A stretch of 64,000 nucleotides of DNA, from assembly GCF_027107535.1 (NCBI RefSeq), contig NZ_CP114283.1, positions 7,626,001 to 7,690,000 of the forward strand. The letters are read 5' to 3'. Source of the stretch: Streptomyces aurantiacus (GTDB taxonomy: Bacteria; Actinomycetota; Actinomycetes; Streptomycetales; Streptomycetaceae). Positions 1 through 15,984 of the stretch are shown one piece after another (position 1 is the stretch's first letter; every line of letters begins with the position of its first letter). The notes beneath the pieces are model-generated. The model made no database searches and had not been told where the DNA came from. It saw only the letters and a list, made by a program, of their open reading frames with translations. The translations under genes and the position numbers were made by a program.

Positions 1-1616
1 TCGCCGCGTACGAGGGCGAGAAGCTGTACGGCCTCGGACAGCACCAGCACGGGCTGCTCGACCAGAAGGGCGCCGTCCTCGACCTGGTCCAGCGCAACGC
101 CGAGGTGACCATCCCGGTCCTCACCTCCAGCCGCGGCTACACCCTGCTGTGGAACAGCCCGGCGATCGGCCGCGTCGAGCTCGCGGGCAACGGCACGCGG
201 TGGGTGGCGGACTCGGCCCGGCAGATCGACTACTGGATCACCGCGGGCCGTCCGGCCGACGCGCAGCGCCGGTACAGCGCGGTGACCGGGCGCACGCCGA
301 TGCTGCCCGAGTGGGCGGCGGGCTTCTGGCAGTGCAAGCTGCGCTACCGCACCCAGGACGAACTCCTCGGCGTGGCACGGGAGTACAGGCGCCGCGGCCT
401 GCCCATCGACGTCATCGTCTGCGACTTCTTCCACTGGACGCATCTGGGCGAGTGGAAGTTCGACCCGGCCGAGTGGCCGGACCCGGCGGCGATGCAGCGG
501 GAGCTCACGGAACTCGGCATCAAGCTCGTCGTGTCCGTCTGGCCGTCCGTCTCCCCGCTCTCCGAGAACCATCAGCTGATGGAGCAGCGGGGCTGGTTCA
601 TCGGCACCCAGTACGGGCCCATGGCACACGCCGACTGGCCGGACAAGGAGGTCGCCTCCACGGTCCAGGTCGCCTTCTACGACGCGACGAACCCCGAGGC
701 GCGTGAGTTCCTCTGGTCGCGGATCAAGGACAACTACCTTGAGCCGTACGGGATCACGTCCTTCTGGCTGGACGCCTGCGAGCCGGAGCTGAAGCCGGGT
801 TTCCAGGAGAACCTGCGCTACTGGGCGGGCCCGGGACTCGAAGTGGGCAACATGTATCCGCGCGAGAACGCCCGCACCTTCCACGAGGGCATGCTGGCGG
901 CGGGCGAGAGAGAGGTCATCACCCTCAACAGGTCGGCGTGGGCGGGCAGTCAGCGCTACGGGGCCGCCCTGTGGTCCGGCGACATCGGCACGGACTTCGC
1001 GACGCTGCGCCGCCAGATCGCGGCGGGTCTCAACACCTCGCTGTCCGGCATCCCCTGGTGGAACACCGACATCGGGGGCTTCCACGGCGGTGACCCGGAC
1101 GACCCGGCGTACCGCGAGGTCATGATCCGCTGGTTCCAGTTCGGCGCGCTGTCCCCGCTGATGCGCCTGCACGGCTTCCGGGACCCGGGCACGCCGCTCG
1201 GCCCGGAGATGACCGGTGGCCCGAACGAGGTGTGGTCGTACGGCGAGGAGGCCGGCGCGATCCTGGAGAGGTACCTCCACCTGCGTGAGCGTCTGAAGCC
1301 GTACGTGCTGGAGGTCATGCGGGAGGCCCACGAGGAGGGGCTGCCGGTGATGCGGCCGCTGTTCCTGGAGTTCCCCGAGGACCAGGCGACGTGGTCCGTG
1401 GACGACGCGTACCTCTTCGGCCGGGACCTGCTGGTCGCGCCGGTGCTCACGGCGGGGGCGACGGCCCGGACGGCGTACCTTCCGGCGGGCGCGCGCTGGA
1501 CCGACGCGTGGACCGGCGAGTCGTACGAGGGAGGCGCGGCCGTGACCGTCGACGCGCCGCTGGACCGCATTCCGCTGTTCCTGCGGGACGGGGCACGGCT
1601 GCCGGTGGCGGAGTGA
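1..1616 (+). CDS. GH31 glycoside hydrolase, alpha-xylosidase type (5' end outside window)
   Basis: The reading frame is already open at base 3 and encodes GH31 N-terminal beta-sandwich sequence (LYGLGQHQHG), so the gene starts before the window. GH31 hallmarks are the nucleophile motif FWLDACEPE (Asp codon 771-773) and the acid/base motif WSGDIGTDF (Asp codon 981-983), followed by a C-terminal beta-domain (LLVAPVL, PAGARWTDAW). GH31 retaining enzymes hydrolyse terminal alpha-glucosides or alpha-xylosides. The neighbouring xyloglucanases, fucosidase and galactosidase make alpha-xylosidase (removal of xylose from the non-reducing end of xyloglucan oligosaccharides) the likeliest role. No signal peptide can be judged because the start is missing. 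It converges on the GH12 gene, with a shared hairpin between them. Alternative: alpha-glucosidase. Confidence 0.88.
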   Translation, partial: AAYEGEKLYGLGQHQHGLLDQKGAVLDLVQRNAEVTIPVLTSSRGYTLLWNSPAIGRVELAGNGTRWVADSARQIDYWITAGRPADAQRRYSAVTGRTPMLPEWAAGFWQCKLRYRTQDELLGVAREYRRRGLPIDVIVCDFFHWTHLGEWKFDPAEWPDPAAMQRELTELGIKLVVSVWPSVSPLSENHQLMEQRGWFIGTQYGPMAHADWPDKEVASTVQVAFYDATNPEAREFLWSRIKDNYLEPYGITSFWLDACEPELKPGFQENLRYWAGPGLEVGNMYPRENARTFHEGMLAAGEREVITLNRSAWAGSQRYGAALWSGDIGTDFATLRRQIAAGLNTSLSGIPWWNTDIGGFHGGDPDDPAYREVMIRWFQFGALSPLMRLHGFRDPGTPLGPEMTGGPNEVWSYGEEAGAILERYLHLRERLKPYVLEVMREAHEEGLPVMRPLFLEFPEDQATWSVDDAYLFGRDLLVAPVLTAGATARTAYLPAGARWTDAWTGESYEGGAAVTVDAPLDRIPLFLRDGARLPVAE

Positions 1617-1631
1617 CCCCGCAGACGTGAG

Positions 1632-1667
1632 GGTGCGGCCGGCTCCCCGGGAGGGGCCGGCCGCACC
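1632..1667. terminator. Bidirectional hairpin terminator between GH31 and GH12
   Basis: A 12-bp perfect stem (GGTGCGGCCGGC at 1632-1643 pairing with GCCGGCCGCACC at 1656-1667) lies between the convergent stop codons at 1616 and 1693. There is no U-tract, which is usual for Streptomyces intrinsic terminators. Confidence 0.8.
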
Positions 1668-1692
1668 GTCGTTCACCTGCGTCGCGCGGGGA

Positions 1693-2406
1693 TCAGCTGC
1701 TGGAGACCGACATGCTGTTGGTGCGGAAGTCCAGGCCGCCGGACGACGAGGTGATCTCGAAGCCGAACTGGACGTCGCCGATGGTCTCGTTGCCCATCCA
1801 GTGCTTGGTGTCCTTGATCCACTTGAGGATCGGCAGGACGTTGACGGTGCCGGAGTTGGAGTCCGAGGTGCGCAGGAACGAGAAGACCTCGTTGGCGCCG
1901 TTGCTGCCCTTGTAGACGGACCAGGTGTGGCCGCCGAGGGTGACGTTGCCCTGCGAGGTGCCGAGCGGGCCCACGGCTCCGTTGTAGTTGACCCAGAGCA
2001 TGATCTCGTAGTCGTAGTCCGTGTCCCAGATGTCGTACGACGTGTTGTACGCGCCGGACGACGGGACCGTGACGTTGTAGCTGCTGCTGAGCGAACCGAG
2101 CGAGGTGATCGACTTGTTGATCACCTTCTTGGCGTTCGGGTAGGACTTGATGCCGCCGGTGTTGGGGTGGTTGGCGTTGACTCCCCAGTTGGTGCCGGAG
2201 TTGGCCCAGATGCACTGGCCGCCGGCGCCGCCGCCCCAGATGTTGTTGTAGAGCGTGTAGCCGTTGAGGCTGGTGTTGCCCCACTGGTCGCAGGAGTTCC
2301 AGACGGCCGCCGAGGCGGGGGCCGAAGCGAGACCGATGGTGGCGCCGAGTGCGAGGGCGGGGGCCAGGAGGGCCTTGGTGATCCTGTTCAGCGTGCGTGT
2401 TGCCAT
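1693..2406 (-). CDS. Secreted GH12 endo-beta-1,4-glucanase / xyloglucanase
   Basis: The 237-residue protein has a Sec signal peptide (MATRTLNRITKALLAPALAL, cleavage near ASA-A at 31-33) followed by a single GH12 jelly-roll domain with no carbohydrate-binding module. Expected catalytic glutamates are E134 in EIMLWVNY (nucleophile) and E217 in FGFEITSS (acid/base). GH12 enzymes retain configuration and cut cellulose or xyloglucan backbones. It is the last gene of the minus-strand group after GH95 (50 bp gap) and ends at the hairpin at 1632-1667. Context with GH74, GH95, GH42 and GH31 favours xyloglucan as substrate, though classical cellulase activity cannot be excluded from sequence. Confidence 0.92.
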   Translation of the reverse strand: MATRTLNRITKALLAPALALGATIGLASAPASAAVWNSCDQWGNTSLNGYTLYNNIWGGGAGGQCIWANSGTNWGVNANHPNTGGIKSYPNAKKVINKSITSLGSLSSSYNVTVPSSGAYNTSYDIWDTDYDYEIMLWVNYNGAVGPLGTSQGNVTLGGHTWSVYKGSNGANEVFSFLRTSDSNSGTVNVLPILKWIKDTKHWMGNETIGDVQFGFEITSSSGGLDFRTNSMSVSSS

Positions 2407-2456
2407 GGTGTCCCTTCCATGGGTGGGGGGATGTGGGGGATGTGACTGCGGTGGAT

Positions 2457-4670
2457 CTACTGCGGCCCCAGGGTCAGGACGCAGTCCTCTCCGGCGCGCA
2501 GGGAGAGCTGTCGCGCTCCGGAGAGAGTTCTGAGGTCGACCCGGCAGGTGCGGGTGGGCCGCACCACCGCCCGGGCCTCCCGCGGGTGCCAGCTGAGATC
2601 GACCACCGCGCCGAACCTCGTGGTCACGCCGAGGAGTTCACCCGCCGGGAGGGCGGCGGGCAGGGCGGGGAGGAGGACCAGCCGGTCGGGGGTCGACTGG
2701 ATCAGCGCCTCGACGATCAGGGCGGGGAGGGTGTGCGCGGCGTCCGCGTTGTAGACGTCGCGGTGGGGGTAGTGCGCGCTCATGAGGGAGGCGTGGAAGA
2801 AGTCGCCCTCCAGTACCCGGCCGAGCGCGTGCGCGACCCGCTCGCCGTCGCGCAGGCGGGCCGCGACGAGGGCGTGGTGCAGGTGCCCGTGCGCGGAGTC
2901 GTTCTCGGCGCCCCGCAGTTCGAGCGCGCGGTGTGCCGCGGCGGCGAGCCCGGGGGTCTCGTAGGGGTTGATCTCGTCGTGCGGCCACACGCCGTACAGG
3001 TGGCTGAGGTGCCGGTGGTCGTACGTGTCGTCGAGGCCGGGCCACGCCCACTCGGCGAGCGCGCCGTCGTCGTTGACGCGGTGCGGGGGCAGCCGCTCGG
3101 CGAGGTCCCGCCATCGGTCCGCGTCGGGGCCGGGGTGGTACGCGGCCGCCGTGAGCAGGGCGTGCCGGGCCGCCGAGAGGTCCATGGCGGCGTTGACCGC
3201 GCCCCAGCTCGCGTTCGCCGGGCGGTTCTCGGGTGAGTAGGAGGGCACGACGACGAGCCGGCCCCGCTCGTCGGTCCGGGTGAGGAAGTCCTCGTAGAAC
3301 AGGGCGACTTCGGCCAGGGCGCCGGCCAGTCGCAGGTCCCGCTCCCCCCGTGTCTCGTCGTGGTCGACCAGGGGCTTGAGCAGCCAGTCGGCGCCCGCCG
3401 TCCACAGGTGCAGGGGGTATTCGCGGCTGAAGTGGTACGTGTGCCCGGACTCGCCGTCCGTGTGGGGCGGGGCGACGACGCCTCGGGCACCGAAGACGGC
3501 GCGGGCGTTGTCCCTCCAGTGCGGCAACTGCCCGTGGATCAGCGTGGCGTGGGCCTCGACGACCTCGGGCAGCGCGGCGGCGACGGCCGAGGCGGTCTGC
3601 AGGTTGAGGTTGGCGTCCGTGGTGAACGCCCCGGACCAGGCCGTGTCCCAGTCGCCGGTCCACAGCCCGGTGAGCCTCGGCGGGAGCATCCCGCTGGCGG
3701 ACAGCAGGTGGTAGCGGCCGGCCGCGAAGAGCCGTTCGAGGAGGGCCGGGCTCTTGGGGCGCTTCAGCAGCTCGGAGCCGGGGAGCGCGCGTTCGGTGTC
3801 GTCGGCGTCGAGGACGAGGCAGGCGCGGGCGTACGCGGTGCGGTGGAGGCGCAGGTGGCGCTCCAGGAGGGTCCCGTACGGGTCCTCGTCGTCCGGCAGC
3901 AGCTCGCGCAGGGCCTGCGTGCCTGCCACCGTGTCCAGTTCCCCGCTGTGCCGGGCGAGGCGCGTCAGCAGCAGGACCGACTCCGCTCCCGTCACGCGCA
4001 TGCCCGGCGGGGCCAGCGTCGTACGGCCGCCGGTGACCACGGCCAGCATCACCCCCGTGTACGCGCGGTCGCTGCCGGGGTAGCGGGCGCGCAGGGTGAG
4101 TACGGCGCCCTCGGGGGTGAGGACCGCGCCCTCGCTGATGCCCAGCCCGCCCGGGGCACCGGGGAGTCGGTGGTCCAGCGCGATGTCCAGGGTGAGCCCC
4201 GGCGAGGTCACGTACTGGACGATCACGTCGTCGGCGCGCGAGACGAAGACCCGGCTGCGCCAGCCCGTGCAGACCGATTCGGCGACGCCCGTGGTGAAGT
4301 CGACCGAGCGGCGGTAGCCGCGTTCCCCGTCGGACGTCCGTCGCAGCCGTACCTGGAAGGCGGGGTGGAAGGGCTGCACCCACTGCAGGGGGCGCCCGTC
4401 CGTGAAGTCCTCGGCCGCGGCTCGGTCGCCCGCCAGCAACCGGTCCTGGAGGGCGGTCAGTTCGGCCGCCAGCTCCGGTGGGCGGGCGTGCTCGCCGCCG
4501 TTGGGGCGGACGAGGGTGTGGTGCGTGGCGATGACCCGGTCGTCGCCGGGATCGCCGAACACCAGCGCTCCGTGACGGCCGTTGCCGCTCAGGAAGGCGT
4601 CCTCCCAGCGGGCGGCGGGGCTCGGCTCCCAGGTGCCGTGCGGCGGGGGCGGCGGGGCGTCGGCGCTCAC
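2457..4670 (-). CDS. GH95 alpha-L-fucosidase
   Basis: The 737-residue protein shows the GH95 layout: an N-terminal beta-domain beginning WEDAFLSGNGRHGALVFGD, an (alpha/alpha)6 barrel with LTGLWTGDWDTAWSGAFTTD and the conserved DHRHLSHLYGVWP stretch, then a C-terminal beta-domain. GH95 enzymes are inverting and remove alpha-1,2-linked L-fucose (some members L-galactose). On xyloglucan this is the terminal residue of the F side chain. No signal peptide is visible, so it should act inside the cell on imported oligosaccharides. Its GTG start overlaps the TGA of the upstream GH42 gene (GTGA, 4667-4670), implying translational coupling. Confidence 0.88.
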   Translation of the reverse strand: MSADAPPPPPHGTWEPSPAARWEDAFLSGNGRHGALVFGDPGDDRVIATHHTLVRPNGGEHARPPELAAELTALQDRLLAGDRAAAEDFTDGRPLQWVQPFHPAFQVRLRRTSDGERGYRRSVDFTTGVAESVCTGWRSRVFVSRADDVIVQYVTSPGLTLDIALDHRLPGAPGGLGISEGAVLTPEGAVLTLRARYPGSDRAYTGVMLAVVTGGRTTLAPPGMRVTGAESVLLLTRLARHSGELDTVAGTQALRELLPDDEDPYGTLLERHLRLHRTAYARACLVLDADDTERALPGSELLKRPKSPALLERLFAAGRYHLLSASGMLPPRLTGLWTGDWDTAWSGAFTTDANLNLQTASAVAAALPEVVEAHATLIHGQLPHWRDNARAVFGARGVVAPPHTDGESGHTYHFSREYPLHLWTAGADWLLKPLVDHDETRGERDLRLAGALAEVALFYEDFLTRTDERGRLVVVPSYSPENRPANASWGAVNAAMDLSAARHALLTAAAYHPGPDADRWRDLAERLPPHRVNDDGALAEWAWPGLDDTYDHRHLSHLYGVWPHDEINPYETPGLAAAAHRALELRGAENDSAHGHLHHALVAARLRDGERVAHALGRVLEGDFFHASLMSAHYPHRDVYNADAAHTLPALIVEALIQSTPDRLVLLPALPAALPAGELLGVTTRFGAVVDLSWHPREARAVVRPTRTCRVDLRTLSGARQLSLRAGEDCVLTLGPQ

Positions 4671-6655
4671 GGCGACAGCACCGCCGCCCCGTAGCGGCCC
4701 AGCTCCACGGAGTCTGTGACCTGTCGGCCGCCGAGCAGGTCCCGGTACGTTCCGGGCACGGCCACCGTGATTGGGTCCCGCCCGTGGTTGAGGACGAAGA
4801 GGAGGTCTCCCCGGCGCACGGCCTCGACCTGTGCGGGCAGCCCTTCGAGCACCGGCCGCACCCCGGCCTCGGCGGCCACGCCCTCCAACAGCTCTCGCAG
4901 CGCGGCGGGTTCGGGCAGCGTGGAGACGTACCAGGCGCGGCCCCTGCGCAGTACCGCCGGGAGCCCGTCCAGTTCACCGCCCTGGTAGACGGCCTCCGCG
5001 ACACCCTCCCCGGCCTCGATCTCCTCGGACCACAGCGTGCCCCGGAAGCCGTCGCACTCGGCGTGCTCCCCGCGGTCGAGGGGCCACCACTCGTGCAGGG
5101 TCCGGATCCCGAAGAGCTCTCGCAGCCGCCCGTCCATGCCGCCGGGCCGCACCCGGTCGTCCTCGTCCGCGACCCCGGTCAGGAAGCCGCAGACCAGGGT
5201 GCCGCCGCCCCGTACGTACGCGACGAGGTTGTCGATCGCAGCGTCGGTGAGCAGGTACAGCTGGGGTACGACGACCAGCCTGTACGCGGACAGGTCGCGC
5301 TCGGGGTGCGCGAAGTCCGTGGTGACATGGGCCTCCCACAGGGCGCGGTGCCAGGCGCGCACGACCTGCGGATGGTCGACCTCGGAGGAGAGCCGGCCGT
5401 CCTGGGACCCCGCCCACCAGGCGTTCCACTCGTGGAGGATCGCCACCTCGGACACGGAGTGACGGCCCGTCACCTCGCCCTTGAGGCAGACTAGTTCGGT
5501 GCCCAGCTGCCTGATCTCCTGGTAGGTGCGCCCCTGTTCCCCCGCGTGGCTGACCATGCCCGAGTGGAACTTCTCCGCGCCCTGCCTGGACTGCCGCCAC
5601 TGGAAGTAGCAGACGGCGTCGGCGCCCCGGGCGACGGCCTGGAGGGACCACAGACGGTTGAGGCCGCGCGGCTTGGGATGGTTGACGCCCCGCCAGTTCA
5701 CCGGTCCCGCGGCCTGCTCCATCAGCATCCACGGTCCACGGGCCTGGGAGCGCGTCATGTCCTGGATGAGCGCGCCGTTCTGCGCGCCGAAGGGGTCGCG
5801 CGGGTCGGGATAGATGTCGACGGAGACGACGTCCTCCTCCTGGACCCACTTCCAGGCGTCCTGGCCCACCCACATCGGCATGAAGTTGGTGGTCACCGGG
5901 AGGTCCGGGGAGTACCGGCGGACGATGTCACGCTCGGCGGCGTAACACTCCAGGAGCATGTCGCAGGTGTAGCGCCTGAAGTCCAGCACCTGCGTGGGGT
6001 TCTTCATGTAGTGGGCGTGGCGCGGCGGCAGGATCTCCTCCCAGTCGCCGTAGCCCTGGCTCCAGAAGGCCGTGCCCCACGCGGTGTTGAGGGCGTCGAG
6101 CGTGCCGTACCTGTTCCGCAGCCAGCGGCGGAAGGTGACGGCGGCCTCGTCGCCCCAGTCGAACGTGCAGTACTCGTTGTTGATGTGCCACATCGTGAGG
6201 GCGGGATGGCTTCCGTAGCGGGCGGCCAGGTCCTCGGTGATGGCGGCGGCGTGGCGGCGGTAGGTGGCGCTGGAGTGCGAGAAGTGCTGGCGGCCTCCCC
6301 ACCACTCGGTGCGCCCGTCCTCGTCGCGGGGCAGTGTGTCCGGGTGGAGGCGGCCCAGCCAGGGCGGCGGCGAGGAGGTGGGGGTGGCGAGGACGACCCC
6401 GATGCCGTTCTCGTGCATGAGGTCCATCAGGCGGTCGAGCCAGCCGAACTCCCGCTCTCCCGGCCGCGGTTCGAGCTTCGCCCAGGAGAAGACGCCGAGG
6501 GTGACGGAGTTGACGCCGGCCGCCTTCATCAGGCGTACGTCCTCGTGCCAGGTCTCCTCGGGCCACTGCTCGGGGTTGTAGTCGCCGCCGAAGAGGATGC
6601 GCCCGCGGGTGACGTCGGCGAGGCCCGGCCGGGCGGGCGCCTCGTGGGCGGTCAT
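4667..6655 (-). CDS. GH42 beta-galactosidase
   Basis: The 662-residue protein has the GH42 TIM barrel starting ILFGGDYNPEQWP, acid/base E161 in WHINNEY and nucleophile E313 in MEQAAGPVNW, then the trimerisation and C-terminal domains. It would remove beta-galactose, here most plausibly from the L side chain of xyloglucan after the fucosidase has acted. The ATG at 6653-6655 is chosen because it overlaps the GH74 stop as ATGA and directly precedes the conserved N-terminus. The frame stays open further upstream but encodes only GH74-shadow sequence. No signal peptide, so probably cytoplasmic. Confidence 0.92.
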   Translation of the reverse strand: MTAHEAPARPGLADVTRGRILFGGDYNPEQWPEETWHEDVRLMKAAGVNSVTLGVFSWAKLEPRPGEREFGWLDRLMDLMHENGIGVVLATPTSSPPPWLGRLHPDTLPRDEDGRTEWWGGRQHFSHSSATYRRHAAAITEDLAARYGSHPALTMWHINNEYCTFDWGDEAAVTFRRWLRNRYGTLDALNTAWGTAFWSQGYGDWEEILPPRHAHYMKNPTQVLDFRRYTCDMLLECYAAERDIVRRYSPDLPVTTNFMPMWVGQDAWKWVQEEDVVSVDIYPDPRDPFGAQNGALIQDMTRSQARGPWMLMEQAAGPVNWRGVNHPKPRGLNRLWSLQAVARGADAVCYFQWRQSRQGAEKFHSGMVSHAGEQGRTYQEIRQLGTELVCLKGEVTGRHSVSEVAILHEWNAWWAGSQDGRLSSEVDHPQVVRAWHRALWEAHVTTDFAHPERDLSAYRLVVVPQLYLLTDAAIDNLVAYVRGGGTLVCGFLTGVADEDDRVRPGGMDGRLRELFGIRTLHEWWPLDRGEHAECDGFRGTLWSEEIEAGEGVAEAVYQGGELDGLPAVLRRGRAWYVSTLPEPAALRELLEGVAAEAGVRPVLEGLPAQVEAVRRGDLLFVLNHGRDPITVAVPGTYRDLLGGRQVTDSVELGRYGAAVLSP

Positions 6656-8886
6656 CGGGCGGGCTCCCCGTACTGGATGCCGCGTCCGTTGGTCGCCAGG
6701 TACACCCTGCCGTACACGCGCGGGTCGCCCGTGATCACCTCGCCCGTCCAGCCCCACTGGTGGGCGTCGTCGTTGATGCGCGTCCAGGTCTTCGCCTCGT
6801 CGTCGGAGCGGTACACGGCGGTGATGGTCTCCGTCGAGCCGACCAGGTAGACCGCCGGATAGCCGGCGCCGTCGGCCGCCCTGCCGAATCCGAGCGTGTA
6901 CGAGGCCCAGCAGCTGTCCACCTTCGAGAAGGTCGCCCCGCCGTCGGTGGAGCGGTGGAGGCCGTTCCACTTCAGGCTCAGCCACAGGTCTCCGCTGCGC
7001 CCCGGCGCCGCGACCAGTTCGAACTGGGTGTCACCGGAGGACAGCCCGGTCGCGCGGGCCGTGAACGAGCGACCGCTGTCCGTGCTGGCGTACAGGGTTC
7101 CGCTGTCGGTGTCGTACGCGTAGAAGAGGGCGGGGTCGGCCGGGTCGGCGACCGGTGTGGCGCCCTTCGGGAAGGAGGCGACCTCGGACCAGGTCGCGCC
7201 GTTGTCCGTGGAGCGGTGGGCCGCGTACTTCGTGCCGTCCCAGTGCACGAACGACCACAGCAGCGCGCTGCCGTCGGCGTTGACCGCGATCGGCCCCGGC
7301 GCCTCCTTGGCGATGGCGGGCTGGGCCCCGAAGGGCGCCCAGGTCCGTCCGCCGTCGTGCGAGTGGGCCCCGTTGCCGTGGTCGCCCCAGCCCGTGCGGA
7401 CCACGTACGACGGCTCGGCCGCGGCCTGGGCGAGCCCCGTCGCCGTCCCGAAGACGGGGTTCGACGCCATGCCGCGCGACGGGGAAGCCGTGAGCTTCTC
7501 GTGGTACATCACGCCGATGTCCCCGAGGCCGCTGAGCAGGTGCGCCTTCCCGGCCGGGGGCGAGATCAGCTGGCGTACGGACGTCTCCTCCAGGCCGCGG
7601 ATCTGCGGCGCCCAGTGCTTGAGGTCACGGGTGCCGTAGAGGGTCGCGCCGGTCCCGAAGACGAGGTGCTTCGAGTCGTACGGGTCCAGGGCGAGCGCCT
7701 GGATCCACCAGCCGAACTTCGGCTTGTCGGCGCCCCACTTGAGGTAGGGGGTCTCGGACACGTCGAACACGGCGGTGTCCTTGAGGGACGTCCAGGTGCG
7801 GCCGCCGTTCGTGCTGCGGTACACGGTGTCGATGTCGGCCCAGCGGTTGTTGGTGGAGACGACGACGGTGCCCGGGCGGCGGGCGTCCACGGCGGCTCCG
7901 CCGTACGCGAAGGTGTCGGTGGACCCGTCGGAGGTGGTCCCGCCCGGCTTCACGGGAGTCACCTCGGCCCACTTGCCGGTCGTGGTCCGCAGTTTGTGCA
8001 CGCTGCCGTCGGACTGGCCGTTGGGTCCGGGCGCGTTGGCGTACGTCACGTACAGCTCGCGCGTGTGCCGGTCGTAGGCCGCCCTGACCGGCACCTTGGC
8101 GGAGGTGCCGGAGGGCTGCCCGGGGACGGCCTCCCACGCCGTCCCGTCGGCCGTGCGGTACAGGTTCGCCGTCCCCGGGGTGCCGTCGCCGTCGCCCCAC
8201 CCGGCGTAGACGGCCCGCCCGGCGGCGACGAGGAACATGACGCCCTGCCCGGAGGCGCTCGGCTTCCCCGGGAAGCCGCTCACCGGCGCCCAGGTCGCCC
8301 CGCGGTCGGTGGACCGGAGCAGCCCGTCGTGCCGGGTCCCCAGCCACAGCGTGTCGCTGTCCCGCGGATCGACCAGCAGCCGCTCCCCCGCGCCCCGCCC
8401 GTCCTCGTTGGCGCCGAGTTTCACGTCGAGGTCGGTCCGGCGCCAGGTCGCGCCCCGGTCCTCCGACCGCAGCACCGCGCCGTTGCCGGCCCACGACTGG
8501 GCGTACGTGCCGAGGGAGAGGTAGACCCGGTCCGGGTGCGCCGGGTCGACGGCGATCGCCTCCACGCCGAGGAGGTTCCAGTCGTCCCACCCGAGGTGGT
8601 CGGTGAGCGGGATCCAGCGGCCTGCCCGGTCGTCCCAGCGGTAGGCGCCGCCGATGTCGGTACGGGCATAGGCCAGACCCCGTACGGAGGGGTGGAACAG
8701 CACCCCGGTGACGAACCCGGTACCGCCGATGACGACGTTGCGCCAGCGGTAGGCGGATCCGTCCGCGTTCTCGTCCGCGTCAGTGGCCGCCAGCGCCGGG
8801 CCGGAACCGACGGAGATGGCGGTGAGGGCAACCGTGGCAGCGGTCCCGGAAAGGACGGCGCGTCTATTCGGACGGGACGTGCGCAT
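6652..8886 (-). CDS. Tat-secreted GH74 xyloglucanase
   Basis: The 744-residue protein starts with a twin-arginine signal (RPNRRAVLSG, hydrophobic core, AxA near 31-33) followed by the two seven-bladed propellers of GH74. Many Asp-box repeats of the S-x-D-x-G-x-T-W type are visible (SEDRGATW, STDRGATW, STNGGRTW, STDNGATW, STDGGATF). The N-terminal catalytic motif ARTDIGGAYRW places the candidate catalytic Asp at D77. GH74 enzymes are largely specific for xyloglucan, which makes this the strongest substrate clue in the cluster. No cellulose-binding module is attached, unlike many secreted actinobacterial GH74 enzymes. It sits 156 bp downstream of the second permease gene. Confidence 0.93.
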   Translation of the reverse strand: MRTSRPNRRAVLSGTAATVALTAISVGSGPALAATDADENADGSAYRWRNVVIGGTGFVTGVLFHPSVRGLAYARTDIGGAYRWDDRAGRWIPLTDHLGWDDWNLLGVEAIAVDPAHPDRVYLSLGTYAQSWAGNGAVLRSEDRGATWRRTDLDVKLGANEDGRGAGERLLVDPRDSDTLWLGTRHDGLLRSTDRGATWAPVSGFPGKPSASGQGVMFLVAAGRAVYAGWGDGDGTPGTANLYRTADGTAWEAVPGQPSGTSAKVPVRAAYDRHTRELYVTYANAPGPNGQSDGSVHKLRTTTGKWAEVTPVKPGGTTSDGSTDTFAYGGAAVDARRPGTVVVSTNNRWADIDTVYRSTNGGRTWTSLKDTAVFDVSETPYLKWGADKPKFGWWIQALALDPYDSKHLVFGTGATLYGTRDLKHWAPQIRGLEETSVRQLISPPAGKAHLLSGLGDIGVMYHEKLTASPSRGMASNPVFGTATGLAQAAAEPSYVVRTGWGDHGNGAHSHDGGRTWAPFGAQPAIAKEAPGPIAVNADGSALLWSFVHWDGTKYAAHRSTDNGATWSEVASFPKGATPVADPADPALFYAYDTDSGTLYASTDSGRSFTARATGLSSGDTQFELVAAPGRSGDLWLSLKWNGLHRSTDGGATFSKVDSCWASYTLGFGRAADGAGYPAVYLVGSTETITAVYRSDDEAKTWTRINDDAHQWGWTGEVITGDPRVYGRVYLATNGRGIQYGEPAR

Positions 8887-8995: not shown

Positions 8996-9042
8996 CGACG
9001 GCCGACCCGCGGTTCCCCGGCTGAACCGAGCGGACCGGCAGG

Positions 9043-9993
9043 TCAACCCTTGACCGCGCCGGTCAGCATGCCCTTCTTGAAGTGCTTCTGGACGAAGGGC
9101 GAGAGGAAGGCGACGGGGAGCAGGGCCAGCACCATGACCGCCATCTGGACGGCGAGCGCGGAGAGCTGGCCCGTCTTGATGGCCTGGCCCATGCCGACCG
9201 GCGGTTCCTGCTTCTGGACGAGCTGGATCATGACGTTCTGCAGCGGCATCATGTCCTGGTCGCTGAGGTAGATCGACGCGTTGAACCAGGCGCTCCAGTA
9301 GCCGACGGCGTAGAAGAGCGTGATCACCGCGATGACGGCGCGGGAGAGCGGCATCACGATCTGCCAGAGGATCCGCCAGTCCCCCGCTCCGTCGATCCGC
9401 GCGCTGTCGGTGAGTTCCGGCGAGATGCCCATGAAGAACGCCCGCAGGACCAGGATGTTGAAGACGCTGATCGCGCTCGGCAGGATCAGCGCGAGATACG
9501 TGTCCGTCAGCCCCAGCGACTGCACGAGCAGGTACGTGGGGATGAGGCCGGCGCCGAAGAACATCGTGGCGAGCAGGATCATCAGGAACCAGCGGTGCCC
9601 GACGGACCCGATGCGGGAGAGCCCGTACGCCGCGAGGATGGACACCGTCATCGAGAACACCGTGCCCACGAGCGTGACCCCCAGGCTGACGAGGGTGGCA
9701 CGGGTGACCTGGCCGCCGCTCAGCAGTTCCTGGTAGGCGATGAAGGTGATGCCCTTGGGGACCACCACCAGTCCGCCGGCCTCACTGATGGCCTGCTTCG
9801 AGGACAGGCTGGTGACGACGACGATCCACAGCGGGAACAGGACGGCGAGGCAGGCGACGGCCAGGACTATGCCTTTGCCGGCGAGTCCGGCCTTGTGGGG
9901 TTCCTCCTCCCAGGCGGGCCTCGGCGGGGCGGCCCAGCGTCCGGAAGTCCTCGGGCCGGGGGCCTTCGGCCGTTCCTCGGTGACAGCGCTCAC
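9043..9993 (-). CDS. ABC sugar transporter permease, MalG/YtcP type
   Basis: The 316-residue inner-membrane protein has six predicted TM helices and the permease EAA loop (ARIDGAGDWRILWQIVMPLSRAV). The C-terminus FVQKHFKKGMLTGAVKG is typical of the YtcP/LplC branch of CUT1 importers, which carry oligosaccharides. GTG at 9991-9993 is used because it overlaps the TGA of the preceding permease (GTGA). It pairs with the LplB-type permease and lipoprotein just upstream. The likely cargo is xyloglucan oligosaccharides, an inference from context. No ATPase gene accompanies the set. Confidence 0.9.
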   Translation of the reverse strand: MSAVTEERPKAPGPRTSGRWAAPPRPAWEEEPHKAGLAGKGIVLAVACLAVLFPLWIVVVTSLSSKQAISEAGGLVVVPKGITFIAYQELLSGGQVTRATLVSLGVTLVGTVFSMTVSILAAYGLSRIGSVGHRWFLMILLATMFFGAGLIPTYLLVQSLGLTDTYLALILPSAISVFNILVLRAFFMGISPELTDSARIDGAGDWRILWQIVMPLSRAVIAVITLFYAVGYWSAWFNASIYLSDQDMMPLQNVMIQLVQKQEPPVGMGQAIKTGQLSALAVQMAVMVLALLPVAFLSPFVQKHFKKGMLTGAVKG

Positions 9994-11087
9994 TTCTTGT
10001 ACACCCCCTGCTCGCCCATGAGATGGGCGACCTTGTTCGCGGCGAGGACGAGACCGAGACTGACCACGCCCTTGATCAGGCCCGCGGCTGCCGCGTAACT
10101 GAACTCCTGGTTGCGGACGCCGTTCCACCACACGAAGGTGTCGAGCACTTCCGCCGCGCCCGGTCCCACCGCGTCTCTCTGCAGCAGGATCTGTTCGAAG
10201 CCGACCGTGAGCGCGTCACCGACCCGCAGCACCAGGAGCAGGGCGATCACCGGCCGCAGTGCGGGCAGCGTGACGTGCCACATCCGGCGCCACCGGCCGG
10301 CCCCGTCCATCGCCGCGGCCTCGTACAGGTCGGGACTGACGGAGGCCAGTGCCGCGAGGAAGACGATGACGCCCCAGCCGGCGTCCTTCCAGACGCCCTC
10401 CGCCGTCACCAGGAACTTGAAGACCCCCGGGTCGGTCATGAGGTCGAAGCCCTCGTGGCCGTGCCGGCGCAGGGTCTGCGCGATGATGCCGGCGCCGCCG
10501 AAGATCTGCTGGAAGACGGTGATGACCAGCACCCAGGAGAAGAAGTGCGGGAGGTAGAGGATCGCCTGCGAGATCGCCCGCACCCGGGGCCTGAGCACGC
10601 TGTTGATGAGCAGCGCGAGCACGATCGGGATCGGGAAGAACAGCAGCAGCTGGAGCGAGAACAGGACGAACGTGTTCTGGACGGCGTCCCAGAACGCCGA
10701 GTCCTCGAAGATCCGTGAGAACTGCTCGAAGCCGACCCAGGGGCTGTGGAAGATGGCGACGAAGCCGTTGTCGCTGACGTACGGGTCGTACTCCTGGAAG
10801 GCGACGACGTTGCCCAGGATCGGTATGTAGTTGAAGACCAGGACCAGCAGGACGGCCGGCAGGGTCATCAGGACCAGCGTGCGGTCCCGCTTGAGGCGGG
10901 TCCTGAGCGTGCCGCCGTTCGCGGCCTTCTTCAGGGCCTTCTTCTCGGCTCGGGTGACCCCGCCGGGCCTGGCGGGTCTGCCGGGTCGGGCGGACCGGTG
11001 CCCCCCGGCGGAGGGTTCGGCGGTGTCGTCCGTCGTCGACGAAGGCGCTGTGCGCGGGGCGGCGCCCGGAGTGGTGCTGTGTGCCAC
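9990..11087 (-). CDS. ABC sugar transporter permease, LplB type
   Basis: The 365-residue protein has a basic, disordered N-terminal tail of about 65 residues (rich in RP, then KKALKKAANG), six TM helices and the EAA loop AAAMDGAGRWRRMWHVTLPALRP. It belongs to the LplB branch of binding-protein-dependent permeases. The start is GTG at 11085-11087, four bases after the stop of the binding-protein gene. It forms the heterodimer partner of the permease encoded next. Confidence 0.9.
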   Translation of the reverse strand: MAHSTTPGAAPRTAPSSTTDDTAEPSAGGHRSARPGRPARPGGVTRAEKKALKKAANGGTLRTRLKRDRTLVLMTLPAVLLVLVFNYIPILGNVVAFQEYDPYVSDNGFVAIFHSPWVGFEQFSRIFEDSAFWDAVQNTFVLFSLQLLLFFPIPIVLALLINSVLRPRVRAISQAILYLPHFFSWVLVITVFQQIFGGAGIIAQTLRRHGHEGFDLMTDPGVFKFLVTAEGVWKDAGWGVIVFLAALASVSPDLYEAAAMDGAGRWRRMWHVTLPALRPVIALLLVLRVGDALTVGFEQILLQRDAVGPGAAEVLDTFVWWNGVRNQEFSYAAAAGLIKGVVSLGLVLAANKVAHLMGEQGVYKK

Positions 11088-11091
11088 TTCG

Positions 11092-12774
11092 TCACCCCTG
11101 CGCGGAGCCGCTGTCGTCCAGCAGCTTCTTGTACCAGTCGCGCAGCTTGTCGCCGCCCTGGCTCTTCCACTCCGACACCGCCTGCTGCATGTCGCTGACC
11201 TTCTTGCGGCCGCGGACGACGCTGTCCTCCAGGTCCTCGAAGTCGTTGGAGAGGCTGGTGTAGCGGGCCGGTTCGGTGATCTGGAGCCCGAAGAAGGAGG
11301 ACTTCTTGGTGAAGGCCCCCATCCGCTGCTGCCACTCCACCTGCTCCTTCGCGATGTCCGGGAAGTCGGGGTGGGCGATGGTCGGGGCCGGGCTCGCGAG
11401 CATGACGAAGGCGTTCAGGACCTCCTGGTTGCCCTTGTCGTTCTTGGTGGGCACGCCGTCCTTGATGGTGTAGTGCGTGCCCTCCACCCCGTAGTTGGTG
11501 AGCATGAACTCCTTGGTGCCGTACGGGGCCGCGGTGACGTTCGCGGCGGCCAGCACGTCGTGGATCACCGCCTTCGACGCCTTCTTGTTGATGAAGGCGA
11601 AGATGCCGGCGGGCGAGGCGGCCCACAGCTGGGGGTCGCCCCCGTCATGGCCGAAGATGTCCATGCCGGATATGCGGAATTCCTTGTTCTGGGTGGCCTG
11701 TTCGGCCATCTTGCCCCACCAGTCCGAGATGTTCTGGTTGTACATCATGACCTGGCCGTCGGTGAAGCGCTGGCCCGCGTTGCCCTGGTTCGCCGCCCTG
11801 GCGTCGGGGTGGACGACACCCGCCGCGTACAGCTTGCGGGTCCACTCCAGTGCTTCGAGATACTCCTCGGTCTCGACCCGGTAGATCAGCTCGCCGTCGA
11901 CGAGGTTCCAGCCGAGCGACTTCTCGCTGCCGGACAGCACGCCGAAGCTGTTGAAGGCGGTCCACTTCATGTCGTCGCAGGCCCACACCTTCGCCTTGGC
12001 GTTGGTGATCTCCTTGGCGAGGGCCAGGAACTCGTCGGCGGAGGTGGGGACTTCGTACCCCTCCTTGTCGAAGACGTCCTTGCGGTAGAAGGGCACGATG
12101 CCCTGGACGGTGGGAGAGGGCTGCGGCAGGCCGCGCAGCTTGCCGCCGAAGATGGAGCGCTGCCAGGCGTCGGTCGGGATGGCCGCGAGGTTCGGGTACT
12201 CCTTGACCTTGTCGCCCGAGAGGTACGGGCCGAGGTCCGCCATCTTGCTGATGATGGCGCTGGGTATCTTGCCGCCCATGTTCCAGCTGGGGATCACCAC
12301 GACGTCCGGCATGTCACTGGAGGCGAGGACAGCGCCCAGCTTCTCGTCGTACGTGTTGCCGTCCTGGTTCTGCCAGACGATCTCGGCGCCGATCATCGCG
12401 TTCATCGCCGAGTAGTACGGGTTGCCGCCCTTCGGCGGCGAGCCCCAGAACGGCGAGATGATTTTGATGGTGCTGCCCTTGCCGAGCTTCCGCGGCACCG
12501 AGGTCTTCAGGCCGGCGAGCGAGAGCTTGCCGGTGAACCCGACAGCGGAGCCGTTCTTCGACGCGATGTCCGGCGTCACCACGTTCTGCGCCACGAAGGC
12601 GGGAAGGATCTTCTTCGCGTCCTTGCCCGAGGTCGTGCCCTCCTTGGAGCCGCTGTCGGAGCCACCGCAGGCGGCCAGCAGCGGCATCCCGCCGGTCACC
12701 GCGGCGGCAGCGACCGCCGTGGAGCCGAGGAAGCTTCTCCGGCTGGGAGCGGAGGAGGGGGAGTTCGGCGTCAT
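11092..12774 (-). CDS. ABC sugar-binding lipoprotein, LplA type
   Basis: The 560-residue extracellular solute-binding protein has a twin-arginine lipoprotein signal (SRRSFLGSTA) with lipobox LLAAC at about 33-37. Its large size and sequence (PFWGSPPKGGNPYYSAMN, YNQNISDWWG) fit the LplA-like family-1 binding proteins, often used for long or branched oligosaccharides. It is the first gene of the minus-strand operon SBP, permease, permease, GH74, GH42, GH95, GH12. The promoter at 12930-12958 carries a palindromic operator at its start point. Confidence 0.9.
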   Translation of the reverse strand: MTPNSPSSAPSRRSFLGSTAVAAAAVTGGMPLLAACGGSDSGSKEGTTSGKDAKKILPAFVAQNVVTPDIASKNGSAVGFTGKLSLAGLKTSVPRKLGKGSTIKIISPFWGSPPKGGNPYYSAMNAMIGAEIVWQNQDGNTYDEKLGAVLASSDMPDVVVIPSWNMGGKIPSAIISKMADLGPYLSGDKVKEYPNLAAIPTDAWQRSIFGGKLRGLPQPSPTVQGIVPFYRKDVFDKEGYEVPTSADEFLALAKEITNAKAKVWACDDMKWTAFNSFGVLSGSEKSLGWNLVDGELIYRVETEEYLEALEWTRKLYAAGVVHPDARAANQGNAGQRFTDGQVMMYNQNISDWWGKMAEQATQNKEFRISGMDIFGHDGGDPQLWAASPAGIFAFINKKASKAVIHDVLAAANVTAAPYGTKEFMLTNYGVEGTHYTIKDGVPTKNDKGNQEVLNAFVMLASPAPTIAHPDFPDIAKEQVEWQQRMGAFTKKSSFFGLQITEPARYTSLSNDFEDLEDSVVRGRKKVSDMQQAVSEWKSQGGDKLRDWYKKLLDDSGSAQG

Positions 12775-12905: not shown

Positions 12906-12919
12906 TCGAAGCGCTTCGA
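12906..12919. promoter_or_regulatory. Operator palindrome 1 (importer operon)
   Basis: Perfect 14-bp palindrome TCGAAGCGCTTCGA, about 10 bases downstream of the minus-strand -10 box, over the expected transcription start. The central AAGCGCTT resembles LacI/GalR-family operators such as the CebR site TGGGAGCGCTCCCA. It is identical to the copy at 13088-13101. No LacI-family gene lies in the window. Confidence 0.8.
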
Positions 12920-12929
12920 TGTTGCTGCG

Positions 12930-12958
12930 AGGTTAAGTGAACGCCTGGGGGTGCACAA
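12930..12958 (-). promoter_or_regulatory. Predicted promoter of the xyloglucan importer operon
   Basis: On the minus strand -35 TTGTGC (12953-12958) and -10 TAACCT (12930-12935) are separated by 17 bp. The palindrome at 12906-12919 follows where RNA polymerase would start. The binding-protein gene begins at 12774, giving a leader of about 140 nt. Confidence 0.6.
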
Positions 12959-13058
12959 GAGCCGATTCCAACATTCCTGGGAGGTATGGAGGTCTGAACC
13001 AGTGCCTTTCAACTCTTGGGATGTCGGTGAGGATTCGGAGTTGTTGCGTCGGGGTGTC

Positions 13059-13087
13059 TTGACACCCGGCCATCCGTCGAATGAGCA
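13059..13087 (+). promoter_or_regulatory. Predicted promoter of the GH3 gene
   Basis: A consensus -35 TTGACA (13059-13064), a 17-bp spacer and -10 TGAGCA (13082-13087) are followed at the next base by the palindrome at 13088-13101. A repressor there would block initiation. The GH3 start lies at 13147. Confidence 0.65.
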
Positions 13088-13101
13088 TCGAAGCGCTTCG
13101 A
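13088..13101. promoter_or_regulatory. Operator palindrome 2 (GH3 gene)
   Basis: Second copy of TCGAAGCGCTTCGA, directly abutting the plus-strand -10 box. It lies 182 bp from copy 1, centre to centre, so the two divergent promoters could be co-repressed, perhaps with looping. Confidence 0.8.
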
Positions 13102-13146
13102 AAGTTCTTCGCGGCTTTTCCTCGTCTTCCGTAAAGGGATCCTCGC

Positions 13147-15984
13147 GTGACTGCACAAACGCCGCCTTTCCGCGACTCGCAGCTGCCGTTCGCGAAGCGC
13201 ATCGACGATCTTCTGTCGCGGCTCACCCTGGACGAACGGGTGGCGATGCTGCACCAGTTCGGGCCCGCGGTGGAGCGGCTCGGCATCGCCGCCTTCCGCA
13301 CCGGCCAGGAGGCGCTGCACGGGGTCGCCTGGATGGGCCCCGCGACGGTGTTCCCCCAGGCGGTCGGCCTGGGCGCGACCTGGAACGGGGAACTGGTACG
13401 CCGGGTGGGCGAGGCGGTCGCCACCGAGACCCGCACGATGCGCTCGCGCGACGACCGCGTCGGCCTCAACGTCTGGGCACCCACGGTCAATCTCCTGCGC
13501 CACCCCCTGTGGGGCAGGAACGAGGAGGGCTACTCGGAGGACCCGAAGCTGACCTCGGCGATCGCCACCGCGTACACCCGCGGGCTGCGCGGCGACCATC
13601 CCGCGTACTGGCGCACGGCGCCGGTCCTCAAGCACTGGCTCGCGCACAACAACGAGACGGACCGGGCCACCGGGTCGAGCTCCGTCCGCCCCCGCGTGCT
13701 GCACGAGTACGATCTGCGCGCCTTCCGTGAGACGGTCGAGGCGGGCGCGGTGGCCGGCGTGATGCCCGCGTACAACCTGGTCAACGGCCGCCCGAACCAC
13801 GTGTCGCCGTACCTGGACGAGCACCTGCGCGCCTGGACGGACCAGGAGCTGCTGGTCTGCTCGGACGCGGGCGCGCCCTCGAACCTGGTCGACTCCGAGC
13901 ACTACTTCGACACGCACGAGGAGGCGACGGCCGCGTCGCTGCTCGCCGGTGTCGACAGCTTCACGGACCACGGGACGGACAGCTCGAAGATCGTCGAACG
14001 GGTTCGAGGGGCCCTGGACCGGGGCCTGGTGACCGAGTCCGACATCGACGCGGCGGTCCGCCGCCAGCTCGCGGTCCGCTTCCGCCTCGGCGAGTTCGAC
14101 CCGCGCCTCGACCCGTACGCGGACAGCAAGGACTTCGACACCCCTGCACACCGGGCGCTCGCCCTGGAGGCGGCGGAACAGGCGGTGGTCCTGCTCAAGA
14201 ACGACGGCCTGCTCCCCCTCACCGACCCGGCGACCCGCGTCGCGGTGGTCGGCCTGCTCGCCGACGAGTGCAAGCTCGACTGGTACAGCGGCACCCTCAT
14301 CCACCGCTCCACACCGCTCGAAGGCCTGTACGAGCGTTTCGGCGCCGACCGGGTGGACTTCGCCGAGGGCGTGGACCGCGTACGTCTGAGGACCTCCGCC
14401 GGTACGTACCTGAGCGTCCCGCGGGCCGACGACGCGACCGACGAGGTCCGCGGCGCCGAGGGTGCGCTGGACCCGGCCCTTCTCGCGGGCCGCACCGACC
14501 TGCCTCCGCTGACCGCCGACGACACCGGGACCGAGCTCGCGCTGATCGACTGGGGCGACGGCGTCCTCACGTTCCGCGCTCCCGACGGCCGCTATCTGTC
14601 GGTCGCCGACGACGGCTTCGTACGCGCCTCCGCCGACCAGCCCGGCGGCTGGTTCGTGCAGGAGACGTTCCGCCTGGAACCGCACGACTCCCACGAGAAC
14701 GGTCACCTCCTGAGGCACGTCGCTACGGGTCGCTACGTCTCTGTGACCGCCGACGGCGTGAAGGTTGCCGACGAGAATCCGGAAATCCTGGAGCTGGAGT
14801 TCTCGGAGCGCGGCGAGGTCGCGGTGACGCGCGCGGCGGCCGGCGCCGACGTCGTCCTCGTGGTCGCGGGCAACGACCCGCACATCAACGGGCGCGAGAC
14901 GGAGGACCGCACCACGCTGGCGCTCCCCGCCCATCAGAGCCGCCTGCTGGCCGCCGCGAAGGCCGCGAACCCGCGCACGGCTCTGATCGTCACGTCCTCC
15001 TACCCCTACGCGCTCGACCCCACGGACCTGCCCGCGGTCCTGTGGACGGCCCACGGCGGTCAGGCGGCCGGTACCGCCCTGGCCCGTGTTCTCGCGGGGG
15101 ACGTCTCCCCGGCGGGCCGTCTGCCCCAGACCTGGTACGCCTCGGACACGGATCTGCCCGCTCTCCTCGACTACGACGTGATCGGCAGCCGCCAGACGTA
15201 TCTGTACTTCGAGGGCAGCCCGCTCTTCCCGTTCGGCCACGGCCTGTCGTACGCGTCCTTCGGGTACGGGGACTTCTCGGCGCGTGCCGGGGAGGAGTCC
15301 GTGCGGGTCACGTTCACGGTCACCAACACCGGTGACACCGAGGCCGACGAGGTGGCCCAGCTCTACGGCCGCCCCGTGAGTCCGTCCGTCCCGCGCCCCC
15401 GCCGCGCCCTGCTGGCCCACCGGCGCGTCCGTCTCGCCGCGGGCGCCTCCACCGAGCTGTCCTTCGAACTCCCGCTCGGCGCCTTCGAGTTCTGGGACGT
15501 CGCCCACGGCACGTGGCGTCTGGAACCCGGTGGCCACGAACTCCTCGTGGGCGCGTCCAGCGAGGACGTCCGCCTCCGCGGGACGGTCGAACTGGCCGGC
15601 ACCCCCGCCCTCCCGCGCCCGGTCCTCGAACACGGCCTGGCCGCCGTCGACTTCGACGAGCAGCGGGGCGCGGAGATCGTCGACCGCACGAAGCTCTCGG
15701 GCGACGCGGTCGCACCCGCGAACGCCGTCACGGCCGAACTGCTCTACCGGGCCTGCGACTTCGGCCCGGGGACCCACTCCGTCACGGTCGAGGCGTCGGG
15801 CGAGGGCACGGTCGAACTGACCCTGGACGACGGCCGGGTGATCGCCCGCCTCCACATCGCGCCCACGGCGGGCCCGTACGCCTACACCTCTGTCAGCACC
15901 CCGCTCCAGGCCTCCGGGGTCCGCGACCTGCGCATCGGACTGCGCGGCCCGCTGAGGCTCGCGCACGTCGGCTTCTCCGGTTGA
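13147..15984 (+). CDS. GH3 beta-glucosidase with inserted trefoil-like domain
   Basis: The 945-residue protein has a GH3 TIM barrel with nucleophile D240 (LVCSDAG) and a second domain with the acid/base motif ETEDRTTLALP (Glu near 583). The second domain is interrupted at about 411-551 by an insertion with three repeats ending G-x-Y-L/V-S-V (AGTYLSV, DGRYLSV, TGRYVSV), which resembles a fascin-type beta-trefoil. A fibronectin-like domain follows, and the last 100 residues look like a CBM6-type beta-sandwich. No signal peptide. Likely role: trimming unsubstituted beta-glucosyl ends of imported xyloglucan oligosaccharides. GTG start, with AAAGGGA upstream. Alternative: beta-xylosidase. Confidence 0.9.
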   Translation: MTAQTPPFRDSQLPFAKRIDDLLSRLTLDERVAMLHQFGPAVERLGIAAFRTGQEALHGVAWMGPATVFPQAVGLGATWNGELVRRVGEAVATETRTMRSRDDRVGLNVWAPTVNLLRHPLWGRNEEGYSEDPKLTSAIATAYTRGLRGDHPAYWRTAPVLKHWLAHNNETDRATGSSSVRPRVLHEYDLRAFRETVEAGAVAGVMPAYNLVNGRPNHVSPYLDEHLRAWTDQELLVCSDAGAPSNLVDSEHYFDTHEEATAASLLAGVDSFTDHGTDSSKIVERVRGALDRGLVTESDIDAAVRRQLAVRFRLGEFDPRLDPYADSKDFDTPAHRALALEAAEQAVVLLKNDGLLPLTDPATRVAVVGLLADECKLDWYSGTLIHRSTPLEGLYERFGADRVDFAEGVDRVRLRTSAGTYLSVPRADDATDEVRGAEGALDPALLAGRTDLPPLTADDTGTELALIDWGDGVLTFRAPDGRYLSVADDGFVRASADQPGGWFVQETFRLEPHDSHENGHLLRHVATGRYVSVTADGVKVADENPEILELEFSERGEVAVTRAAAGADVVLVVAGNDPHINGRETEDRTTLALPAHQSRLLAAAKAANPRTALIVTSSYPYALDPTDLPAVLWTAHGGQAAGTALARVLAGDVSPAGRLPQTWYASDTDLPALLDYDVIGSRQTYLYFEGSPLFPFGHGLSYASFGYGDFSARAGEESVRVTFTVTNTGDTEADEVAQLYGRPVSPSVPRPRRALLAHRRVRLAAGASTELSFELPLGAFEFWDVAHGTWRLEPGGHELLVGASSEDVRLRGTVELAGTPALPRPVLEHGLAAVDFDEQRGAEIVDRTKLSGDAVAPANAVTAELLYRACDFGPGTHSVTVEASGEGTVELTLDDGRVIARLHIAPTAGPYAYTSVSTPLQASGVRDLRIGLRGPLRLAHVGFSG

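Follow-up and report, generated by a model that had tools for sequence, protein, structure and literature searches.

A probable LacI-controlled xyloglucan utilisation locus in Streptomyces aurantiacus that shares a predicted operator with a second locus

How might a Streptomyces cut a decorated hemicellulose outside the cell, import the pieces and trim them inside, and what would switch such a programme on? Xyloglucan is a main hemicellulose of the primary cell wall, and members of the genus Streptomyces are major decomposers of soil and the root zone. The question is raised by genes at the left end of a 64,000 nt stretch of Streptomyces aurantiacus DNA, hereafter the window (C2:7626001-7690000 of a 9.9 Mb genome in two contigs), for which a preliminary description had proposed a complete locus for the uptake and breakdown of fucogalacto-xyloglucan.

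Gene content and layout of the locus

Genes were called on the basis of codon usage in the window and in the adjoining 18 kb on its left (L001), and the gene calls coupled with Pfam matches recovered every family that had been named, i.e. GH74, GH12, GH95, GH42, GH31, GH3 and a CUT1 importer. The features of the locus within the window are as follows.

1..1616, plus strand: 3′ part of a GH31 alpha-xylosidase gene (full gene L001:17547-19616, 689 aa); Pfam GH31, no export signal
1617..1692, no strand assigned: hairpin between GH31 and GH12, likely a two-way terminator (predicted fold)
1693..2406, minus strand: GH12 endo-glucanase/xyloglucanase, 237 aa; Pfam GH12 (E 4.5e-19), Sec-type signal
2457..4670, minus strand: GH95 alpha-L-fucosidase, 737 aa; Pfam GH95 domains, no signal
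4667..6655, minus strand: GH42 beta-galactosidase, 662 aa; three Pfam GH42 domains, four-base overlaps at both ends, no signal
6652..8886, minus strand: GH74 endo-xyloglucanase, 744 aa, catalytic module only; matches to solved structures, twin-arginine-like signal
9043..9993, minus strand: CUT1-type ABC permease, MalG/UgpE-like; Pfam BPD_transp_1, UgpE-like below cut-off
9990..11087, minus strand: CUT1-type ABC permease, MalF/UgpA-like; Pfam BPD_transp_1, UgpA-like below cut-off
11092..12774, minus strand: lipoprotein solute-binding protein (SBP), 560 aa; cluster-G-like fold in the model
13147..15984, plus strand: GH3 beta-glucosidase/beta-xylosidase, 945 aa; Pfam GH3 N and C domains, Fn3-like, CBM_6, no signal

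The minus-strand genes form a single run in the order SBP, permease, permease, GH74, GH42, GH95 and GH12, with GH3 divergent from the SBP gene and GH31 convergent with GH12. Gene-call coordinates agree with the four-base overlaps described earlier for GH74/GH42 (6652-6655) and GH42/GH95 (4667-4670), and an additional one joins the two permease genes (9990-9993). The edge of the window cuts GH31, the 5′ end of which lies 454 bases to the left, and a LacI-type regulator gene is located ahead of GH31 at L001:16418-17431, outside the window. The hairpin at 1617-1692 had fold z scores of -4.5 (minus strand) and -5.7 (plus strand), and 0 of 200 shuffles were as stable. A terminator between the importer and the enzymes was considered and rejected, since 149 of the 156 bases in the gap before GH74 have a predicted fold that is no more stable than that of shuffled sequence (z +1.5). 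To call the locus complete is an overstatement, as the ATPase is encoded elsewhere, the regulator and part of GH31 lie beyond the window, and a second locus sharing the operator is found 6.6 Mb away. Elsewhere in the window, a small open reading frame (16072-16242), which we take to be a ribosomal protein L32 gene, adjoins GH3, while positions 60352-63600, which adjoin a presumably RlmN-like gene, are sparse in gene calls and of lower GC content (the last 4 kb have 0.64).

Conservation was assessed around relatives of GH95, using the best 80 of 305, so that the resulting counts describe near relatives; 79 of these loci carry Streptomyces names and one is from an 'Actinobacteria bacterium'. GH42 was present in 78 of the 80, GH12 in 76, the permeases in 72 and 71, GH3 and the SBP in 70 each, GH74 in 68, LacI in 66 and GH31 in 62, these counts being uncorrected for the several loci that end at contig ends. 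The gene set proposed in the preliminary description does indeed recur in related Streptomyces, and this conservation rules out a chance cluster. Variation was also observed: 11 loci have GH12 but, within the stretch, lack both GH31 and LacI, five have LacI without GH31, and eight (L026, L027, L055, L065, L076, L079, L085 and L086) have the SBP and no GH74. L065 is furthermore without GH42 and GH12. Homologues of the SBP and of GH95 also include proteins of S. avermitilis, at 91% and 79% identity respectively.

Backbone cutters, importer and trimming enzymes

The product of the GH74 gene belongs to this family, having a full-length module in which both Asp positions of the solved xyloglucanases are kept, and we take these two residues to be catalytic. 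It aligned over the whole module with 13 solved GH74 sequences at E values of 9e-147 to 5e-132. A WW pair serves as the rule for processivity in GH74 enzymes; where the alignments of solved members show this pair the S. aurantiacus protein has W-A, which would fit a non-processive endo-enzyme. A GH74 enzyme is also known from S. avermitilis (SaGH74B). A second GH74 gene, 46% identical, is present in the S. aurantiacus genome itself (G000:C2:6909175-6911439), and a search of this genome for the BNR_6 family gave 0 matches. The best solved relative of the GH12 protein is NopAA (E 1e-42), and the alignments show both Glu positions to be kept, the roles of which we presume from the family. Its NCBIfam match, PRK06215, is named "hypothetical" and gave no function.

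The two MalF/MalG-type permeases together with the SBP constitute a CUT1 sugar ABC importer, for which no ATPase gene was found in the locus. Among 138 matches in the genome just one UgpC/MsiK-type ATPase scored above the family cut-off, far off at C2:9161470, and this is a candidate for the shared partner of the importer. The predicted structure of the SBP is cluster-G-like and resembles receptors for large oligosaccharides, cluster G being defined by a mass of about 55-60 kDa, an AlgQ1/AlgQ2/FusA fold and a large pocket. The structural neighbours of the model include ones that, in the available text of a preprint (PMC12710961), are given for the XXXG receptor Athe_2052; structure 9PMY was not among the matches listed for the model, and a comparison of the SBP sequence with solved structures returned seven matches, all weak. 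Across 70 related loci, identity to the window SBP falls into two groups, of 59-69% (24 loci) and 72-98% (46 loci), while GH74, GH42 and GH95 of the same loci are 75-97% identical; the two groups may reflect a possible exchange of receptors.

Among the trimming enzymes, GH95 retains E540, D643 and the second Asn of an Asn pair in all 81 copies, while 72 of the 81 have Asp as the first member of that pair; presumably the Glu, the Asp and the Asn pair have catalytic roles. Sixty-five plasmid records held GH95, every one at below 60% identity. The nearest solved structure is 7KMQ (E 5.7e-57), identified in the accessible part of its report as XacAfc95, an alpha-1,2-L-fucosidase from a Xanthomonas xyloglucan locus (PMC8245568). 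GH42 matched solved beta-galactosidases with a best E value of 2e-167. GH31 was assigned as an alpha-xylosidase, its nearest solved relative being MeXyl31 (E 2e-199 over residues 39-685), and it scores below the NCBIfam equivalog cut-off for YicI. GH3 matched many beta-glucosidases and beta-xylosidases, none of them decisively; it falls under every NCBIfam cut-off, is nearest to beta-xylosidase models and shares 45% identity with the secreted GH3 encoded at the second locus. About 150 extra residues with a weak fascin-like match are found within its C-terminal domain, and the C-terminal CBM6 on this signal-less protein is unusual for a cytoplasmic enzyme. The proposal of one enzyme for each linkage stands as far as the families go, all of which are there; the individual assignments rest on homology, with GH95 and GH3, the weak links in the set, lying far from characterised enzymes.

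It could be argued that the locus serves another beta-glucan or a mixed hemicellulose, such as mixed-linkage glucan or xylan side products, with GH95, GH42 and GH31 acting in general side-chain removal. GH12 enzymes may be beta-glucanases, several of which are among the matches listed for this protein, the beta-xylosidase models nearest to GH3 would be in keeping with xylan, and in one relative (L181) genes for GH43 and an arabinofuranosidase-C protein are found near operator copies. We nevertheless judge this to be very unlikely, given that GH74 matches solved xyloglucanases and GH31 matches MeXyl31 at the E value above, that the combination of alpha-xylosidase, fucosidase, galactosidase and GH74 jointly fits fucogalacto-xyloglucan best, and that the same predicted operator also precedes the genes of the second locus, with their own alpha-xylosidase (YicI, 1240 bits).

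Export signals were assessed by a simple test of N-terminal hydropathy and motifs, with no dedicated predictor. By this test GH74 and GH12 carry signals and GH95, GH42 and GH3 do not, just as had been described; GH31 also has none, whereas the SBP does. The SBP signal is of the twin-arginine type with a lipobox, that of GH74 is twin-arginine-like and that of GH12 Sec-like. In the related loci a 14-residue hydropathy of at least 1.4, a threshold chosen after a stricter one (10 residues, 2.0), was reached by 76/76 GH12, 58/65 GH74 and 60/70 SBP copies, as compared to 0/74 for GH42, 0/80 for GH95 and 1/59 for GH31, and the SBP lipobox was present in 69/70. The stricter threshold was passed by 74/76 GH12, 20/65 GH74 and 9/70 SBP copies, and by none of the 10 full-length copies of GH3. 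These data bear on whether trimming is partly extracellular, through the CBM6-bearing GH3 or by non-classical export, with the importer taking small sugars. Such an arrangement would accommodate the CBM6 of GH3, the signal on its 45% identical paralogue and the occurrence of the same site ahead of the second importer, but is opposed by the lack of a hydrophobic N-terminus on GH95, GH42, GH31 and GH3 in the proportions given and by the likeness of the SBP model to receptors for large oligosaccharides; we consider it unlikely.

Families, signals, SBP fold and conservation are best read, in agreement with the preliminary description, as outside cutting followed by import of large decorated oligosaccharides and trimming inside the cell. 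GH74 and GH12 would be exported and would cut the glucan backbone outside, and the lipid-anchored SBP, with its predicted large pocket, and the two permeases would import decorated oligosaccharides at the expense of a shared MsiK/UgpC-type ATPase encoded elsewhere. Inside, GH95 would remove fucose, GH42 galactose and GH31 xylose, in that order, after which GH3 would degrade the glucose backbone from its non-reducing end; both the substrate and this order we infer from the families present.

A palindrome shared by two LacI-associated loci

The regulator encoded ahead of GH31 contains the domains of the LacI/GalR family (Pfam LacI, E 7e-18; Peripla_BP_3, E 1.2e-27), and its predicted operator is a perfect 14-bp palindrome, TCGAAGCGCTTCGA. 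The sites in the window and the second locus are as follows.

12906..12919, no strand assigned: operator 1 (predicted), TCGAAGCGCTTCGA, 132 bp upstream of the SBP start codon
13088..13101, no strand assigned: operator 2 (predicted), TCGAAGCGCTTCGA, 46 bp upstream of the GH3 start codon
L018:986-10348: second locus, comprising SBP2, two permeases, a YicI alpha-xylosidase, a LacI paralogue and a secreted GH3

A third copy at the first locus is situated 109 bp before the start of lacI, and a near copy with two mismatches 20 bp before it. The whole 9.9 Mb genome has just four perfect copies, three at the window locus and the fourth preceding the operon of the second locus, as compared to 0.02 copies per genome expected from base composition and 0 for the reversed-letter control. 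When one mismatch was allowed, four more sites were obtained, equal to the four obtained with the reversed control; one of them lies 23 bp from the fourth perfect site and three are elsewhere, and no link to the xyloglucan system was seen for the genes at those three. At the second locus YicI scored 1240 bits against a cut-off of 606, the LacI protein is 56% identical to the first, and GH3 carries a signal by the hydropathy and motif test.

The arrangement of sites is conserved in the relatives. Exactly two perfect copies of the palindrome lie between the SBP and GH3 genes in 70 of the 70 loci holding both, and a copy precedes LacI in 64 of the 65 loci where at least 200 bp upstream of this gene was available. 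Six of the 210 sites in the related loci lie elsewhere, one of which (L024) is also a LacI site, its contig end being too short for that rule.

In a sample of the genus the SBP was found at E 1e-60 or better in 126 of 246 genomes, about half, four of these via distant hits only. Leaving out G010, G103, G112 and G205 (distant SBP hits) and then G242, G243 and G245 (absent from later samples) took this count from 126 to 122 and to 119 orthologues, in 242 genomes. SBP2 was found in 58 of the 242, including five at 53-54% identity, and was preceded by a perfect palindrome in 28 of the best 30 and by one with a single mismatch in the other two. At least two copies of the palindrome were present in all 119 genomes with an SBP orthologue, and at least one in 13 of the 14 with SBP2 only; among the 109 genomes with neither protein, 18 had at least one copy and one had at least two. 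The two binding proteins co-occur beyond expectation (44 genomes with both, 14 with SBP2 alone, 75 with the SBP alone and 109 with neither; Fisher P 4e-6, a value inflated by the relatedness of the genomes).

Alternatively, the palindrome might be no more than a generic site for LacI/GalR proteins, with the two loci not forming one regulon. The AGCGCT core is common to LacI-family boxes, the CebR box being TGGGAGCGCTCCCA in the text available for that system (PMC4898821, PMC5332605), and 8 of the 99 genomes without the LacI subfamily still have one copy of TCGAAGCGCTTCGA. The flanks of TCGAAGCGCTTCGA differ from those of the CebR box, however, all four perfect copies in the genome fall within the two loci, and among the 242 genomes presence of the site tracks the LacI subfamily, with 142 of 143 genomes that have it containing the site (the exception is G192). 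The genomes with the site include all seven in which the second-locus type of LacI gave the best match, as assigned from E values between 1e-103 and 1e-113 (two of these matches have identities of 55 and 57%). A generic site is in our view distinctly improbable.

We consider it very likely that the window contains a LacI-controlled xyloglucan utilisation locus in which cutting outside, ABC import and trimming inside are combined and which shares its predicted operator with the second locus. Without inducer the LacI repressor would sit on TCGAAGCGCTTCGA before its own gene, the SBP operon and GH3, and binding of a xyloglucan fragment to LacI would lift the repression. The second locus would come under the same operator and probably serves in the use of small alpha-xylosides, for instance isoprimeverose.

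Twenty stretches around further copies in relatives, which are not a fair sample, were also inspected. First-type LacI is found behind the site in five and YicI or the second LacI in four, while five have it within the coding sequence of a DHDPS-family gene that precedes one for an IlvD/EDD dehydratase, one stretch being in two groups. An SBP paralogue, a GH5-X2-CBM46 protein and a GH74 fragment account for one each, the site of L181 is between the genes for GH43 and the arabinofuranosidase-C protein, and no clear sugar link was seen at L168, L177 and L186. BlCel5B, in which a GH5 domain is joined to an Ig-like module and a CBM46, is reported to act on a range of beta-glucans that includes xyloglucan (PMC4817029). 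The sites in the DHDPS-family gene (L171:4001, L172:3698, L179:4001, L182:4001 and L184:4001; Pfam names from L171) occupy the same place in five relatives, 230 bases from the gene end, and are read in frame as Ile-Glu-Ala-Leu-Arg; this 14-mer is either a coding coincidence or an operator within the gene. We tentatively put forward, as possible and not as probable, that the two 56% identical LacI paralogues share one operator and sense different inducers, a large xyloglucan oligosaccharide and a small alpha-xyloside, and so would gate the polysaccharide and the scavenging programmes jointly, with the site in some species also at GH5-CBM46, at GH43 and possibly in the pentonate-dehydratase operon with its in-gene site.

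Relation to known xyloglucan systems

The XyGULs of Bacteroidetes likewise hold enzymes for each linkage in a single locus, and differ in using SusCD import and periplasmic trimming. The importer found here, in which Pfam identifies two BPD_transp_1 permeases alongside the SBP, is not of the SusC/SusD type. The parallel drawn in the preliminary description was thus correct as to the use of ABC import instead, and is superseded in that nearer precedents exist in Ruminiclostridium cellulolyticum (PMC4780118) and Anaerocellum bescii (PMC12710961, a preprint), whose ABC-based xyloglucan clusters, in the portions of these sources available, already place GH31 and GH42 inside the cell. The principle of uptake and trimming is therefore already known from these two organisms.

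By its sequence the S. aurantiacus locus has the components of the R. cellulolyticum type, namely a secreted xyloglucanase, an SBP with two permeases and cytoplasmic GH31, GH3 and beta-galactosidase, the location being that given by the N-terminal test. Within the available text on R. cellulolyticum (PMC4780118), Ccel_2451-2458 is alike in its cytoplasmic GH31, GH3 and GH42, in an SBP with two membrane proteins and an ATPase gene outside the operon, and in extracellular cutting to oligosaccharides with a backbone of four glucosyl units; its SBP binds XXXG with a KD of 3.65 nM, and fucosidase genes are marked in the compared clusters in a figure legend. That system differs in having a two-component system with an AraC-like regulator and cellulosomal xyloglucanases, whereas the Streptomyces locus has a LacI and its predicted palindromic operator, and the importer gene run there also encodes GH95 and the secreted GH74 and GH12. 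The A. bescii system (Athe_2052-2054; PMC12710961), as far as the accessible preprint text goes, is alike in its large (551 aa) cluster G SBP, with GH74 outside, GH31 and GH42 inside and the ATPase elsewhere; its genes are, by locus tags, scattered over the genome, in contrast to those gathered in the Streptomyces locus, and its SBP ligand has been measured (XXXG, 14 nM), whereas that of the Streptomyces SBP is inferred.

The Xanthomonas XyGUL, which includes the nearest solved GH95 relative, XacAfc95, also clusters GH74, GH31 and GH95, and differs by TonB-dependent transporters, GH35 in place of GH42 and an esterase, the term "ABC" being absent from its text as available (PMC8245568). For regulation, the nearest likeness described in the portions available is the CebR cellulose regulon of Streptomyces (PMC4898821, PMC5332605), where a LacI-family repressor and a 14-bp AGCGCT-centred palindrome govern a sugar regulon; CebR differs in its box, TGGGAGCGCTCCCA, and its many cellulase targets, as compared to TCGAAGCGCTTCGA and two loci in the S. 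aurantiacus genome. Among the papers listed by full-text searches of open-licence literature, from which subscription papers are largely absent, none dealt with this locus or its operator in Streptomyces, and within the literature searched the host group, a LacI regulator whose operator is named, the presence of secreted enzymes in the importer run and the second locus are new. It is the proposed LacI regulon of two loci that merits testing, and with operator, regulator and receptor all named, xyloglucan sensing becomes directly testable. A tomato study (PMC9203511) reports an association between loci on chromosomes 6 and 11 of the host and Streptomyces variants, some of which lie in genes for the xyloglucanase Xgh74A and alpha-xylosidase, and the locus may consequently bear on root colonisation if those genes belong to it.
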